A stretch of DNA of 64,000 nt from Thiomicrorhabdus sediminis (lineage in GTDB: Bacteria > Pseudomonadota > Gammaproteobacteria > Thiomicrospirales > Thiomicrospiraceae): contig NZ_CP040602.1 of assembly GCF_005885815.1 (NCBI RefSeq), positions 1,813,630-1,877,629 of the forward strand, read 5' to 3'. The position numbers and the translations under genes were made by a program. Below are positions 44,632-51,131 of the stretch, piece by piece. Under the pieces are notes generated by a model. It saw nothing but the letters and a program-made list of their open reading frames with translations, was not told the origin of the DNA and did no database searches. Positions within the stretch are counted from its first letter, which is position 1. Each line of letters begins with the position of its first letter.

Positions 44632-45696
44632 ATGAAAGAGATATCAGAGACAAACGTACAGCCATTTGCCCAAATTCCGATGCAGGCCGTGGGCCCGTTT
44701 AAACTCATCGGTGATGTCGAAACCGATGATTTAATGGTGCCGATGGCAACCTATGAAACACCGCTTTGGCCCTCTGTGGCTCGCGGTGCTCGAGTGGCCG
44801 CCAGAGCCGGCGGCATTCGCGTCACCTTGATTGATGAGCGTATGACCCGCTCCATTTTGCTGCAAGCCAAACACGCCGGCATTGCTGCCCAACGCCTTGC
44901 CGAAATCAAAAGCCGTCAGGAAGATATTCAAGAGGTCGTCAGTCAAAGCAGTCGTTTCGCCAAACTTTTGGAAATGAACTCCCAAGTGGTCGGTAATCTG
45001 ATTTATCTGCGCTTTGAGTTTCATACCGGTGATGCCTCGGGCCACAATATGGCCACCAATGCAGCGGATAAAATTATTCCTTGGTTATTGGCCGAATACC
45101 CGGATTTGGATTATGTATCGATTTCGGCCAACTACTGCACCGATAAAAAAGTCTCGGCGGTTAACGGTATCTTAGGCCGAGGTAAATACGTGGTTTGTGA
45201 GACCACTATTCCTGCCAAGCTCTGTCAGCGATACTTAAAAACCACACCGCAAGCGCTGGTGGATCTGCATATCAAAAAAGACCTGATCGGCAGCATTGTT
45301 TCCGGTGGTCTGCGAACCGCCAATGCCCATGTCGCCAATATGCTGTTAGGTTTTTATCTCGCCACCGGACAAGATGCCGCCAATATCGTTGAAGGCTCTC
45401 AGGCCATCAACCATGCCGAAGTCACCCCGGAAGGCGATTTGTATTTTTCAACCACCCTCCCTAACTTGATTGTCGGCTCGGTCGGCAACGGTAAAGGCTT
45501 GGATTTCGTTTTGGAAAACCTGCGTTTATTGGGCTGTGCTGACGACTCTCTGCCTGCCGGAGGCAATGCTCGTCGCTTGGCCTGCATTGCCGGTGCGACC
45601 GCATTTTGTGGTGAACTGTCCTTACTTGCGGCGCAGACCAATCCGGGTGAGCTGATGCAAGCGCATATTAAACTGGAACGCCAGCACAAGGCCTAA
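44632..45696 (+). CDS. mvaA: hydroxymethylglutaryl-CoA reductase
   Basis: 354-residue soluble HMG-CoA reductase that reduces HMG-CoA to mevalonate. The catalytic set can be read: Glu42 in MATYETPLW, Lys172 in NYCTDKKVSAVNGILGRGK (very like the human NYCTDKK region), Asp248 in GQDAA and His345 in LMQAHIKLER. The usual DAMGMN cofactor loop is DASGHN here. There is no membrane anchor. First of six mevalonate-pathway genes on the plus strand. A TATAAT hexamer ends 7 nt before the ATG and no ribosome site is seen, so the transcript may be leaderless. Confidence 0.9.
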   Translation: MKEISETNVQPFAQIPMQAVGPFKLIGDVETDDLMVPMATYETPLWPSVARGARVAARAGGIRVTLIDERMTRSILLQAKHAGIAAQRLAEIKSRQEDIQEVVSQSSRFAKLLEMNSQVVGNLIYLRFEFHTGDASGHNMATNAADKIIPWLLAEYPDLDYVSISANYCTDKKVSAVNGILGRGKYVVCETTIPAKLCQRYLKTTPQALVDLHIKKDLIGSIVSGGLRTANAHVANMLLGFYLATGQDAANIVEGSQAINHAEVTPEGDLYFSTTLPNLIVGSVGNGKGLDFVLENLRLLGCADDSLPAGGNARRLACIAGATAFCGELSLLAAQTNPGELMQAHIKLERQHKA

Positions 45697-45721
45697 AACG
45701 GCATAGCCGCAAAGAGAACCG

Positions 45722-46756
45722 ATGAGCACAGAATTTCAGGCACAACAGGTTAATCGTCGCAAGCAAGATCATATCGATGCCGTGCTCAATGACCCGCTAG
45801 TCGAGCGAGGCAATAGCGGTTTCGAAAGCATTCGCCTGCAACATCGCGCCTTGCCCGAATTGGATTTCGCCCGCCTCGACAGCTCAGTACGTTTTTTACA
45901 TAAACAGCTCGACCTGCCTCTTCTGATCGCATCAATGACCGGAGGCAGTGGCGAAAACCTGCAGCATATCAACCGCCATTTAGCCGAAGCCGCGCAACAA
46001 GCAGGCATCGCCATGGCGGTGGGTTCACAACGAGCGATGATCCTCGATAAGGCCGCACAAGCCAGTTTCGATATCCGTCGCTACGCCCCCGACATTCCGT
46101 TAATTGCCAACTTGGGAGCGGTGCAACTGAATTACGGTTTCGGAGAAGATGAAGCGCGCCGTGTTATCGATATTCTTGAAGCCGATGCGCTTTATCTGCA
46201 CCTCAATCCGTTACAAGAATTGATTCAGCCCGAAGGCGATACCAATTTTGCCCATTTGCTGGAAAAAATCGCCCAATTGCAAAACAAAATCGATGTGCCG
46301 ATTATCCTAAAAGAAGTCGGTTGTGGTTTAAGCGATAAAGACATTGAATTGGGCTTATCCGCCGGTATCCGTTATTTTGATATAGCCGGTCAAGGCGGTA
46401 CTTCATGGAGCCGCATCGAATCGCATCGATCCGACAACAGTCTTGGCGAACTGTTCCAGGATTGGGGACTGACCACTTTGCAGAGCTTAGAGCAAGCTAG
46501 AGCCTACCAAAAACAAGGCTATTTTATTGCCAGCGGCGGCATACGAAACGGTATTGATATGATAAAAGCTGTTATAATGGGCGGCCGAATTTGTGGTATT
46601 GCGGCGCCATTTTTGGCTCCGGCACAAGACTCAACAGAAGCCGTATTAAAAACGATCGGGCAATTTAAGCAGGAATTCCAGACCGCTCAGTTTTTGCTGG
46701 GTGTAGATAAGGCGCCTAAATTGCATTTAAACAAACAGCTGGTTGTTGCCGACTGA
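45722..46756 (+). CDS. fni: type 2 isopentenyl-diphosphate delta-isomerase
   Basis: 344-residue FMN- and NADPH-dependent enzyme interconverting IPP and DMAPP. Family motifs are RKQDHIDAV at the N-terminus, LLIASMTGGSG, AVGSQRAM, LIANLGAVQL, LHLNPLQELIQPEGD, ILKEVGCGLS and the FMN phosphate site FIASGGIRNGIDMIKA. It lies 25 bp after mvaA. Type 2 isomerase is the usual partner of the bacterial mevalonate pathway. Confidence 0.95.
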   Translation: MSTEFQAQQVNRRKQDHIDAVLNDPLVERGNSGFESIRLQHRALPELDFARLDSSVRFLHKQLDLPLLIASMTGGSGENLQHINRHLAEAAQQAGIAMAVGSQRAMILDKAAQASFDIRRYAPDIPLIANLGAVQLNYGFGEDEARRVIDILEADALYLHLNPLQELIQPEGDTNFAHLLEKIAQLQNKIDVPIILKEVGCGLSDKDIELGLSAGIRYFDIAGQGGTSWSRIESHRSDNSLGELFQDWGLTTLQSLEQARAYQKQGYFIASGGIRNGIDMIKAVIMGGRICGIAAPFLAPAQDSTEAVLKTIGQFKQEFQTAQFLLGVDKAPKLHLNKQLVVAD

Positions 46757-46823
46757 CTCACAGAAGAGACTGCGCAACAGGCTTAAGCCAAACAGCGATA
46801 ATAAAAAGATATACACTCCGTTA

Positions 46824-48002
46824 ATGATGAAAGTTGGTATTGATCTTATTCACTTTGCAACCGCCGATTACTACCTCGGTCTAGATACTTTTGCCGAGGA
46901 AAAACAGACTGAGCTCGACAAGTATATCGTTGGTATCGGCCAGGAAAAAATGTCGATCGCCCCGCCGGATGAAGACATTGTCAGCCTGGCCGCCAAAGCC
47001 GCAGCGCCGATCCTAGAAAAAATCGATGCCAGCCAGATCAGCGCGGTGTTGTTTGCTACCGAAACATCGGTTGACCAATCCAAATCGGCCGGTGTGTTTT
47101 TGCATGGTCTGCTGGAACTGCCGAGCCGTTGCCGAGTGGTCGAATTCAAACACGCCTGTTATGCCGGCGCGGCCGCCTTGCAGATGGCAACCACCATGGT
47201 CAAGGCCAACCATAAAGAAAAAATTCTTGTTATCGCAGCAGACATCGCCAAATACGATGTTGATACCTCAGGCGAAGCGACCCAAGGCTGTGGCGCCGTT
47301 GCCATGCTGGTAAGTGCTAATCCACGTATTATCGAAATCGAATCCGGCTCCGGTTACTACACCGATGATGTTATGGATTTCTGGCGTCCTAACAACAGAA
47401 CCACCGCCTTGGTGGACGGTAAATATTCCACCAAAGTGTACTTGAATAGCCTGAAACACGCTTGGCAGCATTTTGTTGAAGAGACCGGACGCAAGTTTGA
47501 AGACATCGATTACTTCTGCTACCACATTCCATTTACCAAAATGGCGGAAAAAGCGCATAAGACTCTGGTTAAAAAAGTCGCGGCCAGCGTGACTCAGGAA
47601 CAATTTGATAAGCAAACATTGCCGAGCCAAGTCTATAACCGCATTGTCGGTAACAGTTACAGCGCTTCACTATTTGTCGGCTTTATTTCATTGCTGGATA
47701 ATGTCAAAGACAACTTGGCCGGTAAAAGGGTCAGTTTTTTCAGCTACGGTTCCGGCTGTGTCGCAGAGTTTTTCAGTGGTATTATCCAGCCCGGCTATGA
47801 AAAAGTCTTAATGACCGGTGATCACCTACGCCAGATTGAACAACGTCAACCGTTAAGTTACCAGCAGTATCTGGACTATTATCACAATCAAGAAACTCTG
47901 CCGGAAAACATTATTTTTCCGCAAACCAATAAAGGCCCATACCGTTTAGCGGGTATTGATGACCATAAACGCTATTACGAAAAAACCACTGATTCACAAT
48001 AG
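46824..48002 (+). CDS. mvaS: hydroxymethylglutaryl-CoA synthase
   Basis: 392-residue thiolase-fold enzyme that condenses acetyl-CoA with acetoacetyl-CoA. The catalytic triad is visible: Glu80 in FATETSVDQSKSAG, nucleophile Cys112 in EFKHACYAG, and His234 in CYHIPFTKM. NSYSASLFVGF and FSYGSGCVAEFFSG line the substrate pocket. The frame is open back into fni, but tandem ATGs at 46824 and 46827 give the normal N-terminus MKVGIDLIHF. No acetoacetyl-CoA thiolase is in the window. Confidence 0.95.
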   Translation: MMKVGIDLIHFATADYYLGLDTFAEEKQTELDKYIVGIGQEKMSIAPPDEDIVSLAAKAAAPILEKIDASQISAVLFATETSVDQSKSAGVFLHGLLELPSRCRVVEFKHACYAGAAALQMATTMVKANHKEKILVIAADIAKYDVDTSGEATQGCGAVAMLVSANPRIIEIESGSGYYTDDVMDFWRPNNRTTALVDGKYSTKVYLNSLKHAWQHFVEETGRKFEDIDYFCYHIPFTKMAEKAHKTLVKKVAASVTQEQFDKQTLPSQVYNRIVGNSYSASLFVGFISLLDNVKDNLAGKRVSFFSYGSGCVAEFFSGIIQPGYEKVLMTGDHLRQIEQRQPLSYQQYLDYYHNQETLPENIIFPQTNKGPYRLAGIDDHKRYYEKTTDSQ

Positions 48003-48060
48003 GCGCTTGACTGTTTCGTATATGTCGAGCACGCGCTAATTGTTCAACCGGAAGGCGACC

Positions 48061-49095
48061 ATGCAAACACTTTGTTCAGCACCTGCCAAACTGATTATTT
48101 CCGGTGAGCACTCGGTGGTTTATGGCGCTCCTGCCCTAAGCATGGCTATAGAACGCTATGCGCAATGCCGCTGCGAGCTCGATGAACGGCAAACCAGTGG
48201 TCTGAGCATAATTCTCGATGACCTTAACCAAAGCCAGCGCTTTGCGCTCGCCGAATGGCATCAAATCGCCGTTGAACTGGAAACCCGTTTTGTCCTCTTT
48301 CAACAAAATGCGATTGCCATCCAAAACGTTCTCAATACCCCGTTCGAACTCATTATTTGCGCTTTCCACCTGTTTGAACAGGAGTTCGGTTTGAACCGTG
48401 GCCACTGGCAGGTCCAATTATCCTCAGAAATTCCTATCGGACGAGGCTTGGGCAGCTCGGCGGCGATTATCGTCAGCGTGTTAAAGTCGCTTGTGGTCCA
48501 ACACCAACTGCACTGTAGCGATATGCAATTACTCGCTCTTGCCAAACAGGTCGAATCACGCCAGCATGGCCGATCTAGCGGTCTTGACCCGGCCACTTCA
48601 ATACTTGGCGGCCTGATACGTTTTGAGCAACAGTGCCCGACTAAATTCAGCGAAACAAATCCCCCTTCAATCAATGCTTGGCTGATCGATAGCGGCAAAC
48701 CCCAAAGCACGACCGGGCAAGCGGTGTCTCAGGTGCGCAATCAATTTGCCGACAATCAACCGCTTTGGCAGCAGTTCAGCCACACCACCCAATCCCTGAG
48801 TCAGGCTTGGCAAAATAGAGATATCAAGGCCGTTAAAGCTGCCATTGAAAAGAACCAACAACTATTAAACAGCATCGGCGTGGTGCCCAGAACGATTGAG
48901 AATTTTATCGGTTTATTGAGCAAACACTATCAAGCAAGTGCAAAAATATGTGGTTCCGGTGCCATTAAAGGCGATAATGCAGGAATCATTCTCTGTGTAG
49001 CGGACGAGCCACCTGTGGATTTATGCCGTCAATACGGCTTTGATATCAACCCAATCGCAATGGATTTGAGGGGCGCCCTGTGTCAGCAAAACTAA
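48061..49095 (+). CDS. mvk: mevalonate kinase (GHMP family)
   Basis: 344-residue GHMP kinase expected to phosphorylate mevalonate. It has GEHSVVYGAPALSMAI (15-30), the phosphate loop PIGRGLGSSAA (125-135), HGRSSGLDPATSILGG with the catalytic Asp, the substrate strand DSGKPQSTTG and the C-terminal ICGSGAIKGDNAGI loop. GGAAGG 5 nt before the ATG at 48061 decides the start over a TTG at 48040. It overlaps the next kinase gene by 16 nt. The assignment over the neighbouring kinase rests on the S-T-T-G segment and is moderately secure. Confidence 0.8.
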   Translation: MQTLCSAPAKLIISGEHSVVYGAPALSMAIERYAQCRCELDERQTSGLSIILDDLNQSQRFALAEWHQIAVELETRFVLFQQNAIAIQNVLNTPFELIICAFHLFEQEFGLNRGHWQVQLSSEIPIGRGLGSSAAIIVSVLKSLVVQHQLHCSDMQLLALAKQVESRQHGRSSGLDPATSILGGLIRFEQQCPTKFSETNPPSINAWLIDSGKPQSTTGQAVSQVRNQFADNQPLWQQFSHTTQSLSQAWQNRDIKAVKAAIEKNQQLLNSIGVVPRTIENFIGLLSKHYQASAKICGSGAIKGDNAGIILCVADEPPVDLCRQYGFDINPIAMDLRGALCQQN

Positions 49096-50054
49096 AAAAA
49101 TGGCAAAGCCAAGCGCCGGCAAACACCATGATTCTTGGTGAGCATAGCGTGGTCTATGGCCATCCGGCAATAGCCTGCGCAGTGGATCAATATGTCACGA
49201 TTGAATGGCAGCAACGCTCTGATAAAGGTCTGCATATTGTTTCCGCGTTGGGAGAACACCATACCCAAATCAACCAGATCAGCAAACATCCGAAATTAAA
49301 CTTTGTCATTGCCGTACTTCAAGCGTTTCAAAGTCGTCTCAATTTTGGTTTGGATATCACCATTCACAGTGAATTCTCATCAACCATTGGATTGGGTAGT
49401 TCGGCGGCGGTATTAGCGGCGATGATTTCCGGCTTGAACCACATTTGCCAAGCACAGCTTACCCTTATCGAACAATTCAGTCTCGGCCATAAAATCATCA
49501 TTGATATTCAAGGGCGCGGTTCCGGTACCGACTTGGCCGCCAGTCTGGCTGGTGGAATGATTTTTTTCCAACCGGTTAATGAAAACCAAGCCAAGCCGAT
49601 TATCAAAAAACTGCCGATCAACCTACCGTTGGTATTGATCTATAGTGGCTATAAGACGCCTACCGCCGAGGTCTTGAAACAGGTTGCCATTGACTGGCAG
49701 GACAAACCGAATAAACTGAAAATGCTGTATCGCTCTATGGCCAAAATCACTCGTGGTGCGCTTTATGCGCTGGAACACCATCAATTTGAGAACTTTTACC
49801 AAGCCTGCAAAGACTATCAAAAACAGATGGAAAACCTTGGCGTCAGCGACAGTGTTTTGGATGAGATCATTATGGCGCTAAATGGTTGTGCCGATATTCA
49901 TTGTGCGAAAATATCCGGTTCGGGTCTTGGCGATTGTGTATTAGGCATAGGCGAACTTAACCTATGCTCGAATCAAGCGCAGAAAATCCTCAGCCATTAC
50001 CAAAGCATCCAAATTCAAATTAGCCAACAAGGCGCCTATAGCGAAGCGCTATAA
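49080..50054 (+). CDS. second mevalonate-pathway GHMP kinase, probable phosphomevalonate kinase
   Basis: 324-residue GHMP kinase paralogous to the preceding gene. It shares GEHSVVYGHPAIACAV (20-35), the loop TIGLGSSAAVLAA (102-114), GRGSGTDLAASLAGG and KISGSGLGDCVLG. Its substrate strand reads YSGYKTPTAEVL instead of DSGKPQSTTG. As the pathway needs a phosphomevalonate kinase and no other candidate is present, that role is inferred. It starts with GTG inside the previous gene, behind a GAGGGG ribosome site. Classic MvaK2 enzymes lack the GEHSVVYG start, so this is an unusual version. Confidence 0.7.
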   Translation: MSAKLKKWQSQAPANTMILGEHSVVYGHPAIACAVDQYVTIEWQQRSDKGLHIVSALGEHHTQINQISKHPKLNFVIAVLQAFQSRLNFGLDITIHSEFSSTIGLGSSAAVLAAMISGLNHICQAQLTLIEQFSLGHKIIIDIQGRGSGTDLAASLAGGMIFFQPVNENQAKPIIKKLPINLPLVLIYSGYKTPTAEVLKQVAIDWQDKPNKLKMLYRSMAKITRGALYALEHHQFENFYQACKDYQKQMENLGVSDSVLDEIIMALNGCADIHCAKISGSGLGDCVLGIGELNLCSNQAQKILSHYQSIQIQISQQGAYSEAL

Positions 50055-50099
50055 TTTAACTTTTTTCATTACTCTGCCGTTTAACTGGAACAAAGCTTT

Positions 50100-51131
50100 A
50101 TGCCAACCTCAACAACACTTTCCCGCCAACAACTTTTTGTTAATCAGGTTTTAACGCAATCTGCACAAACAGAACCCTTTGAGGCAAAAAAAACTCAAGG
50201 TACGGGTAAGGCTCCGGTCAATATCGCTTTGAGTAAATACTGGGGAAAACGTGATATCGAGTTGAACCTGCCGCTAAACGGCAGTGTTTCCATTAGTCTG
50301 CCGGGGTTGGGAACAGAGACCGAGATTAGCCTGATTGAAGCCGCAGAGGATAAGGTGTTGTTAAACAACGAGCCACTGCCAGCGGAGCATGCTTTTGCCA
50401 AACGGGTGAGCAAGTTTCTTGACCTGTTCCGCGGTGGCGACAATCAACACTTCGCCATCAACACCTATAACAGCGTACCTACCGCCGCCGGATTGGCATC
50501 ATCCGCTTCCGGTTATGCGGCCTTGGTACTGGCATTAAATGACCTGTTTGACTGGCAACTCAATGGTCAACAATTATCTCTATTGGCACGCTTAGGCAGT
50601 GGCAGCGCGAGCCGCTCGCTATTTAACGGTTTTGCTTTATGGCATAAAGGCGAGAACGAAAACGGCCTGGACAGTTTTGCCGAAGCCATCGACACTAAAT
50701 GGCCGGAATTTTGCATCGGCCTAGTTGAGGTCGACATCAAAGAAAAACCGCTAAGCTCGACCCAAGGCATGCAGAATACGGTCAATACTTGCGATCTTTA
50801 TCAGGCTTGGCCGGAACAGGCCAACCGAGATATGCAGAGCATTATTGAAGCAATTCAAACAAAAGACTTTGCCGCACTCGGAAAAACCGCTGAACACAAC
50901 GCCCTTTCCATGCATGCCACCATGATTGCCACCTGGCCGCCGATTGTCTACTGGCAGGCCGAAAGTGTCACCGCTATGCATAAGGTCTGGCAACTTAGAG
51001 AACAAGGCATTGAAATCTTTTTCACGATGGATGCCGGCCCTAATTTGAAACTGCTGTTTCTGGAAAAACAAAAGCCTGCAATTAAGCAGGCTTTCGGTGA
51101 TATTCGAATTATCGAACCTTTTAAAGACTGA
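50100..51131 (+). CDS. mvaD: diphosphomevalonate decarboxylase
   Basis: 343-residue GHMP-fold decarboxylase making IPP from mevalonate diphosphate and ATP. APVNIALSKYWGKRD is the diagnostic substrate motif. NGSVSISLPGLGT, VPTAAGLASSASGYAALVLAL (ATP loop) and GSGSASRSLFNGFALW (catalytic Asp-equivalent region and helix) follow, with FTMDAGPNLKLLF near the C-terminus. Last gene of the mevalonate operon. A small inverted repeat at 51071-51093 lies in its final codons. Confidence 0.95.
   Translation: MPTSTTLSRQQLFVNQVLTQSAQTEPFEAKKTQGTGKAPVNIALSKYWGKRDIELNLPLNGSVSISLPGLGTETEISLIEAAEDKVLLNNEPLPAEHAFAKRVSKFLDLFRGGDNQHFAINTYNSVPTAAGLASSASGYAALVLALNDLFDWQLNGQQLSLLARLGSGSASRSLFNGFALWHKGENENGLDSFAEAIDTKWPEFCIGLVEVDIKEKPLSSTQGMQNTVNTCDLYQAWPEQANRDMQSIIEAIQTKDFAALGKTAEHNALSMHATMIATWPPIVYWQAESVTAMHKVWQLREQGIEIFFTMDAGPNLKLLFLEKQKPAIKQAFGDIRIIEPFKD

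Follow-up and report, generated by a model that had tools for sequence, protein, structure and literature searches.

Two overlapping kinase genes in a mevalonate operon

The window analysed here, a stretch of 64,000 nucleotides from the single-contig 2.37 Mb genome of Thiomicrorhabdus sediminis (contig NZ_CP040602.1), contains two overlapping genes for kinases of the GHMP family, which, like their products, we call K1 and K2. All coordinates are positions in the window and all features described lie on its + strand. K1 (48061..49095) starts with ATG and encodes 344 amino acids, a longer form from a TTG at 48040 being possible; K2 (49080..50054) starts with GTG and encodes 324. A first-pass annotation of the sequence had described two overlapping kinases, the second beginning within the first and both carrying GEHSVVYG and GLGSSAA. 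The open frames and translations confirm this description: the genes have 16 nt in common (49080..49095), and the two motifs lie at residues 15–22 (48103..48126) and 129–135 (48445..48465) of K1 and at residues 20–27 (49137..49160) and 104–110 (49389..49409) of K2. Reading by eye, we find a ribosome-binding-like gagggg (49068..49073) within K1, six bases upstream of the K2 GTG, so that the overlap appears to be of the kind usual in operons. The K1 and K2 proteins share 28% sequence identity (BLASTP E 9e-20).

K1 and K2 belong to an operon of six genes, all in the same direction (44632–51131), in the order 3-hydroxy-3-methylglutaryl coenzyme A (HMG-CoA) reductase (HMGR), IDI2, HMG-CoA synthase (HMGS), K1, K2 and MvaD. 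From its model score (TIGR00549, 171.1 bits) and the residues K10, E165 and D176, K1 is predicted to be the mevalonate kinase (MK) that converts mevalonate to 5-phosphomevalonate. K2 is predicted, from its place in trees, its motifs, elimination and co-occurrence, to be an MK-like phosphomevalonate kinase (PMK) that converts 5-phosphomevalonate to 5-diphosphomevalonate. The diphosphomevalonate decarboxylase MvaD (50100..51131; TIGR01240, 299 bits against a cut-off of 171.35) needs this K2 product. Upstream lie HMG-CoA reductase (44632..45696), which scores 287 bits with PF00368 and 289 bits with its nearest NCBIfam model, TIGR00533 (NADPH type), under the cut-off of 441.8; the type 2 isopentenyl-diphosphate isomerase IDI2 (45722..46756), above cut-off with TIGR02151 at 371 bits; and HMG-CoA synthase (46743..48002), above cut-off with TIGR01835 at 485 bits.

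Active-site residues of K1 and K2

The two proteins were compared with their relatives in an alignment of 135 selected kinases. A motif-1 lysine, a Mg-binding glutamate and a catalytic aspartate take part in the active site of MKs (PMC1851959, PMC6283576). K1 has all three, as K10 (48088..48090), E165 (48553..48555) and D176 (48586..48588), and the complete set is kept in all 28 gammaproteobacterial K1 rows; the glutamate is likewise found in 28/28 MK reference rows. K1 resembles MKs such as those of Methanosarcina mazei (6MDE) and rat (1KVK) in this trio of residues and in exceeding the cut-off of the MK model, and we assign it as a mevalonate kinase with high confidence. Its motif 3, KICGSGAIKGDNAG (48937–48996, residues ~293–312), includes a loop that exceeds in length those of the MKs and PMKs aligned here; a similar, slightly shorter form occurs in the K1 proteins of Microgenomates.

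K2 presents a different picture. At the motif-1 lysine site it has N15 (49122..49124), and the 30 gammaproteobacterial K2 rows have Asn (12), Ser (17) or Thr (1) here; the position is lysine in 24/24 PMK, 28/28 MK and 10/10 Microgenomates-type K2 rows. I140 (49497..49499) replaces the MK Mg-binding glutamate (Ile in 25 and Val in 5 of the 30 rows). The lysine and the glutamate are thus both gone from every gammaproteobacterial K2 row, and the catalytic aspartate is retained in every one.

Other residues of K2 are those of PMKs. Motif 2, QGRGSGTDLAAS (residues 144–155, 49509..49544), follows the QGxGSxxDxA pattern, with a glycine, G147, where MKs have Pro or Ser; this glycine is present in 30/30 K2 and 21/24 PMK rows, and the corresponding stretch of the Enterococcus PMK reads VQGNGSCGDIAAS. 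Motif 3, KISGSGLGDC (residues 277–286, 49908..49937), carries the PMK aspartate, D285, which is conserved in 30/30 K2 rows, 10/10 Microgenomates-type K2 rows and 23/23 PMK rows, one further PMK row having a gap here, and in 0/28 MK rows, where the residue is Gly in 28/28. A further lysine is typical of K2 itself: K192 (49653..49655), in a GYKTPT loop, is found in 30/30 gammaproteobacterial and 10/10 Microgenomates-type K2 rows, in 0/24 PMK rows and in 5/28 MK rows, and is invariant across the 29 rows of a further set (A3).

These residues are consistent with a pathway in which K1 would use the MK mechanism to phosphorylate O5 of mevalonate, K2 would then phosphorylate the resulting 5-phosphomevalonate, and MvaD would decarboxylate the diphosphate to isopentenyl diphosphate. 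In human MK, replacement of the motif-1 Lys by Met lowers kcat ~56-fold (PMC6283576). In a PMK the lysine/glutamate pair may be dispensable, the acceptor there being an already ionised phosphate and not a hydroxyl, and K192 may help to bind the substrate phosphate.

Asparagine at the motif-1 lysine site also occurs in archaeal MK-like proteins from three DPANN metagenome-assembled genomes (MAGs; L063, L077 and L095). Judged from column counts, the catalytic Asp is probably replaced by Glu, and the Mg-binding Glu by Gln, in these three proteins, which possibly represent another change of substrate.

Gene content and co-occurrence

A search with PF00288, the GHMP N-terminal domain, returned three proteins from the genome: K1, K2 and MvaD. 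Of 16 genus-group genomes covered by the search, 14 have exactly three, the exceptions being two fragmented assemblies, G001 with one and G003 with none. Neither an IspE of the usual kind nor a separate GHMP PMK was found by this search of the T. sediminis genome. The classical route calls for both an MK and a PMK ahead of MvaD, and with K1 and K2 as the sole candidates one of the two must be the PMK. The first-pass annotation had said as much, holding that one kinase must act on phosphomevalonate, and the content of three GHMP proteins and the diphosphomevalonate type of MvaD support it.

Alternative routes were considered in turn. Dxr is absent from the T. sediminis genome and from 15 others of the genus group and was detected in 7/9 outside genomes; with no Dxr in these 16 genomes, the 2-C-methyl-D-erythritol 4-phosphate (MEP) pathway was rejected as the route. 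No isopentenyl phosphate kinase reaches the cut-off of 120, the best match being 47.9 bits in this genome and 54.3 bits across 25 genomes; we infer that these sub-threshold matches are other amino-acid kinases. The animal-type P-loop PMK (PF04275) gave no match in 16 genomes, yet the controls gave none either, so this result is uninformative. The searches covered these three routes; archaeal dehydratase routes lay outside them.

The distribution of the two genes points in the same direction. Among the 25 genomes of the genus group (G000–G024), K1 is present in 24 and K2 in 23; G001 showed K1 alone, at the end of a contig, and G003, in 520 contigs, neither gene. Among named organisms of the collection, the closest relatives of K2 are found in Hydrogenovibrio, Thiomicrorhabdus and Thiomicrospira. 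Across 369 gammaproteobacterial genomes, strong matches to K1 (at least 190 bits, the next best being 81) and strong matches to K2 (at least 136 bits) are found in the same 32 genomes. K1 adjoins K2 in 26 of these, the window and 25 others, and in the other six the genes are separated by a distance or sit on different contigs; G078 and G213 have their K2 divided between contigs, and in G318 the gene is interrupted inside a single contig. On comparison by eye, all PMK-model matches in the 32 genomes fall on K1 or K2. Another type of gammaproteobacterial PMK occurs in 9/369 genomes, none of them among the 32. Dxr is above cut-off in 293/369 genomes of the class and, by the E-values listed, in 0/32 of those with K1 and K2, G319 having a weak match (E 8.5e-23).

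The strict pairing bears on the possibility that K2 is bifunctional, acting on both mevalonate and 5-phosphomevalonate, or is an accessory kinase in a pathway completed in some other way. The MK-like sequence of K2 and its motif-1 histidine would fit such a role. Against it, both genes are present together in 32/32 genomes with a strong match to at least one of them, and the genome offers no other GHMP candidate; we regard this explanation as very improbable.

The upper pathway varies among the same 32 genomes. Four of them (G344, G127, G244 and G078) encode K1 as the C-terminal part of a fusion with HMG-CoA synthase, in HMGS::K1 proteins of 739–773 aa. Loci with this fusion are L144, L151, L153, L170 and L053, one of them from a named gammaproteobacterial MAG, and that of L151 was checked against NCBIfam. 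HMG-CoA synthase above cut-off is missing from nine of the 32 (G255, G353, G139, G051, G197, G305, G087, G047 and G277; loci L145, L146, L166, L157, L159, L163, L160, L164 and L168), and HMGR adjoins K1 in 8/9 of these stretches.

Phylogeny of the kinases

Trees were calculated from a thinned set of 98 of the 135 selected rows, themselves drawn from 229 extracted kinase domains; kinase fragments shorter than 255 aa were excluded, and Sulfolobales, Asgard and eukaryotic (ERG8) PMKs were outside the set. The maximum-likelihood tree places K2 on the PMK side, in a group of 47 rows with support 99/94. The group comprises gammaproteobacterial K2, Microgenomates K2, classical PMKs, the second gammaproteobacterial PMK type and one Altarchaeum protein, its PMKs coming from Firmicutes, Acholeplasma, Actinobacteria and other Gammaproteobacteria. 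When the tree was rooted with six MvaD rows in a new alignment, the same 47 rows came together again (96/59). Within the group of the full tree, gammaproteobacterial K2 forms one branch (100/97) that lies next to the two PMK groups (94/81); Microgenomates K2 branches outside these. K1, Microgenomates K1 and a further small group together form a separate branch (63/84; 90/86 in the MvaD-rooted tree), which in both trees lies apart from K2 and the PMKs and outside the classical MK group. The Altarchaeum protein (MAG L070:258-1199) is MK-like by score and has a PMK-type motif 3 (GRGDY).

The first-pass annotation had proposed that a tandem duplication of a mevalonate kinase was followed by a change of substrate in one copy. 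Adjacency, overlap and homology at 28% identity would suit such an event in this lineage, but a clade uniting K1 and K2 is rejected for the rows sampled by the approximately unbiased (AU) test (p 0.004). Moreover, Microgenomates also carry a pair of kinases arranged in this order; the leading one is closest to K1 (88/72), and the other falls on the PMK side of the tree. The proposal is not borne out: K1 and K2 appear to belong to separate, old lineages, a recent local duplication is excluded, and we consider a tandem duplication of MK in this lineage extremely unlikely. The same annotation had looked, as the outcome opposed to its proposal, to a tree with the second protein within known PMKs. 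A grouping close to that is found with all columns (99/94 and 96/59) but is not resolved when the motif columns are left out.

When 99 motif columns are removed, the tree does not resolve its deep branches and does not join K2 with the classical PMKs. Gammaproteobacterial K2, Microgenomates K2 and the Altarchaeum protein join one another (82/91), and the classical PMKs are separate (96/94). This bears on whether K2 became a PMK independently of the classical enzymes, from an MK-like ancestor, through an old convergence in motifs 2 and 3. Such an origin, which is compatible with a PMK function for K2, has the motif-free tree in its favour; against it stand the union of K2 and the PMKs supported with all columns and the AU test without the motif columns, in which a joint group of K2 and PMK is not rejected (p 0.18). 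We consider an origin of K2 by such an early, separate switch of substrate to be rather unlikely, yet deserving of serious consideration. By these trees Microgenomates K2 is either the sister of gammaproteobacterial K2 or a further deep lineage within the PMK group.

Weighing the assignment of K2

Several observations weigh against K2 being a PMK. First, its sequence as a whole is closer to MKs. With the NCBIfam MK model TIGR00549 (cut-off 163.05 bits), K1 scores 171.1 and K2 164.1, both narrowly above, K2 by one bit; with the PMK model TIGR01220 (cut-off 165.7 bits) both fall below, K1 at 59.8 and K2 at 62.7, so that for K2 164 bits with the MK model stand against 63 with the PMK model. The first-pass view that neither kinase is a classical MvaK2 is borne out by the latter scores. 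TIGR01220 was above cut-off in 0/369 genomes of the class, but 0/14 control genomes, Lactococcus included, passed it in that search. The K2 of locus L151, at 142.4 bits, is below the MK cut-off. The best PDB sequence matches of K2 are archaeal MKs. Second, the GEH/GEY site of motif 1 has the MK histidine in 27/30 K2 rows, and PMK rows have Tyr in 24/24. Third, the overall contrast in specificity positions is modest: at the thresholds used, seven alignment columns separated MK from PMK, and the K2 of the window is PMK-like at four and MK-like at two, K1 being MK-like at four and PMK-like at two, a contrast in the expected direction. Fourth, the predicted folds, which are confident (pLDDT, the predicted local distance difference test, of 95.6 and 95.0), tie K2 between an MK (8teb, Z 36.8) and the Listeria PMK homologue (3k17, Z 36.3), with galactokinases close behind. 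Fifth, the motif-free tree described above does not join K2 with the classical PMKs; a convergence of the K2 motifs with those of PMK is possible, and ~31 of the 98 tree rows deviate in composition from the alignment.

Fold comparison was dropped as a means of discriminating MK from PMK, the top matches being tied for both proteins: K1 has an MK first (8tfo, Z 36.6), tied with a heptose kinase and other MKs, and 3k17 at Z 33.9.

Some of these points would also fit a reversal of roles, with K2 the MK and K1, with its unusual motif 3, the PMK. K2 keeps GEH and does better than K1 against archaeal MKs in a single-sequence PDB search (86.8 versus 61 bits), and the GSGAIKGDNAG loop of K1, five residues longer than its counterpart in K2, is unlike motif 3 in MK and PMK rows. 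The diagnostic residues contradict this arrangement: the MK Lys/Glu/Asp set stands in 28/28 K1 rows, whereas 30/30 K2 rows are without Lys and Glu and have the PMK motif-3 Asp, and the protein grouping with PMKs in the trees is K2, not K1. We consider the reversal improbable.

Overall, elimination, the active-site residues, the tree and co-occurrence lead us to assign K2 as the PMK. It is most probably a phosphomevalonate kinase of an unusual, old branch, with K1 catalysing the preceding step of a classical mevalonate pathway.

Comparison with known systems

K2 resembles the classical GHMP PMKs (MvaK2, TIGR01220; Streptococcus pneumoniae 3GON/1K47 and Listeria Lin0012, 3K17) in its QGxGSxxDxA motif, the Gly-Asp of motif 3, the lack of a Glu at the MK Mg site, its position in a mevalonate operon and its tree group. 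It differs from them in reaching 63 of the 165.7 bits required by their model, in having GEH and not GEY and Asn for the motif-1 Lys, in K192, and in length (324 aa versus 362 aa for the Enterococcus PMK). With MKs it shares GEHSVVYG and a score one bit above the TIGR00549 cut-off, but it is without their Lys and Glu and has PMK motifs 2 and 3.

In Coxiella burnetii, CBU_0609, CBU_0608 and CBU_0607 are named MK, PMK and MvaD (PMC7549970), names that fit the order K1–K2–MvaD; the likeness drawn here is one of annotation and gene order. A Coxiellaceae MAG (L054) carries the K1–K2 pair. The PMK assignment is, to judge by the CBU_0608 annotation, already known for some members and hence not new for all.

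Microgenomates loci (L055–L060, L064–L066 and L068) have the same K1–K2–MvaD order, and their K2 has a QGKGSGFDxAA-type motif 2, the motif-3 Asp and K192. It is unlike gammaproteobacterial K2 in keeping the motif-1 Lys (10/10) and, joined with it in the motif-free tree, is not its sister in the full tree. A eukaryote-type mevalonate pathway has already been described for Candidate Phyla Radiation bacteria, in a paper that gives a PMK tree and postulates that PMK derives from MK (PMC11052028).

Another layout within the Gammaproteobacteria comprises MvaD, a PMK of ~340 aa and an HMGR::MK fusion, and thus supplies all three activities of the lower pathway within this class as well. Its PMK branch is closer to classical PMK than K2 is, and its MK is fused to HMG-CoA reductase. 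At L080:7999-10272 (checked with models) and L176–L186, the MK is fused behind an HMG-CoA reductase of the degradative (NAD) type in proteins of ~760 aa.

Implications for Legionella and for the enzyme family

C. burnetii and L. pneumophila are reported to have mevalonate genes and not MEP genes (PMC9803151). A 2026 survey of the pathway states that all Legionella species it analysed lack phosphomevalonate kinase and that HMG-CoA synthase is missing in most Legionella, and calls for further work on alternative enzymes (PMC13001223). In our collection, the three genomes of one family (f115) all have K1, K2 and MvaD and all are without HMG-CoA synthase above cut-off. The Legionella-named porin family PF05150 is present in two of the three (five copies in one) and in 0/9 other genomes tested. 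Since these porins and a missing HMG-CoA synthase, as published for most Legionella, coincide in it, we infer that this family is the Legionellaceae. A second family, f103, which has the HMGS::K1 fusion, was considered for the same identity and dropped, the porin search having given it no support.

K2 is thus a candidate answer to the PMK reported to be lacking in Legionella. A title-and-abstract search of the literature, in which abstracts were covered at their beginnings and subscription journals mostly uncovered, found nothing on a K2-type PMK lineage or on its loss of the lysine. Our broader reading is that K2 represents a further lineage of GHMP PMKs with relatives in Microgenomates, misnamed as MK or left unnamed by current models, whose gammaproteobacterial branch would have dispensed with the motif-1 lysine and would use K192, and which would be the PMK reported missing from Legionella. 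We hold this tentatively, at a little under an even chance, our confidence being lowered because gammaproteobacterial and Microgenomates K2 do not form one clade in the full tree.

Of the K2-type proteins, 17/29 reach about the level of the MK model (E up to 1e-47) and 0/29 that of the PMK model, so that a presence/absence table would count an MK and no PMK. Model scores would therefore suffice to create a gap of the Legionella type in such tables. For enzymology, K2 would raise the question of how phosphate transfer by a GHMP enzyme proceeds when the motif-1 lysine is missing.

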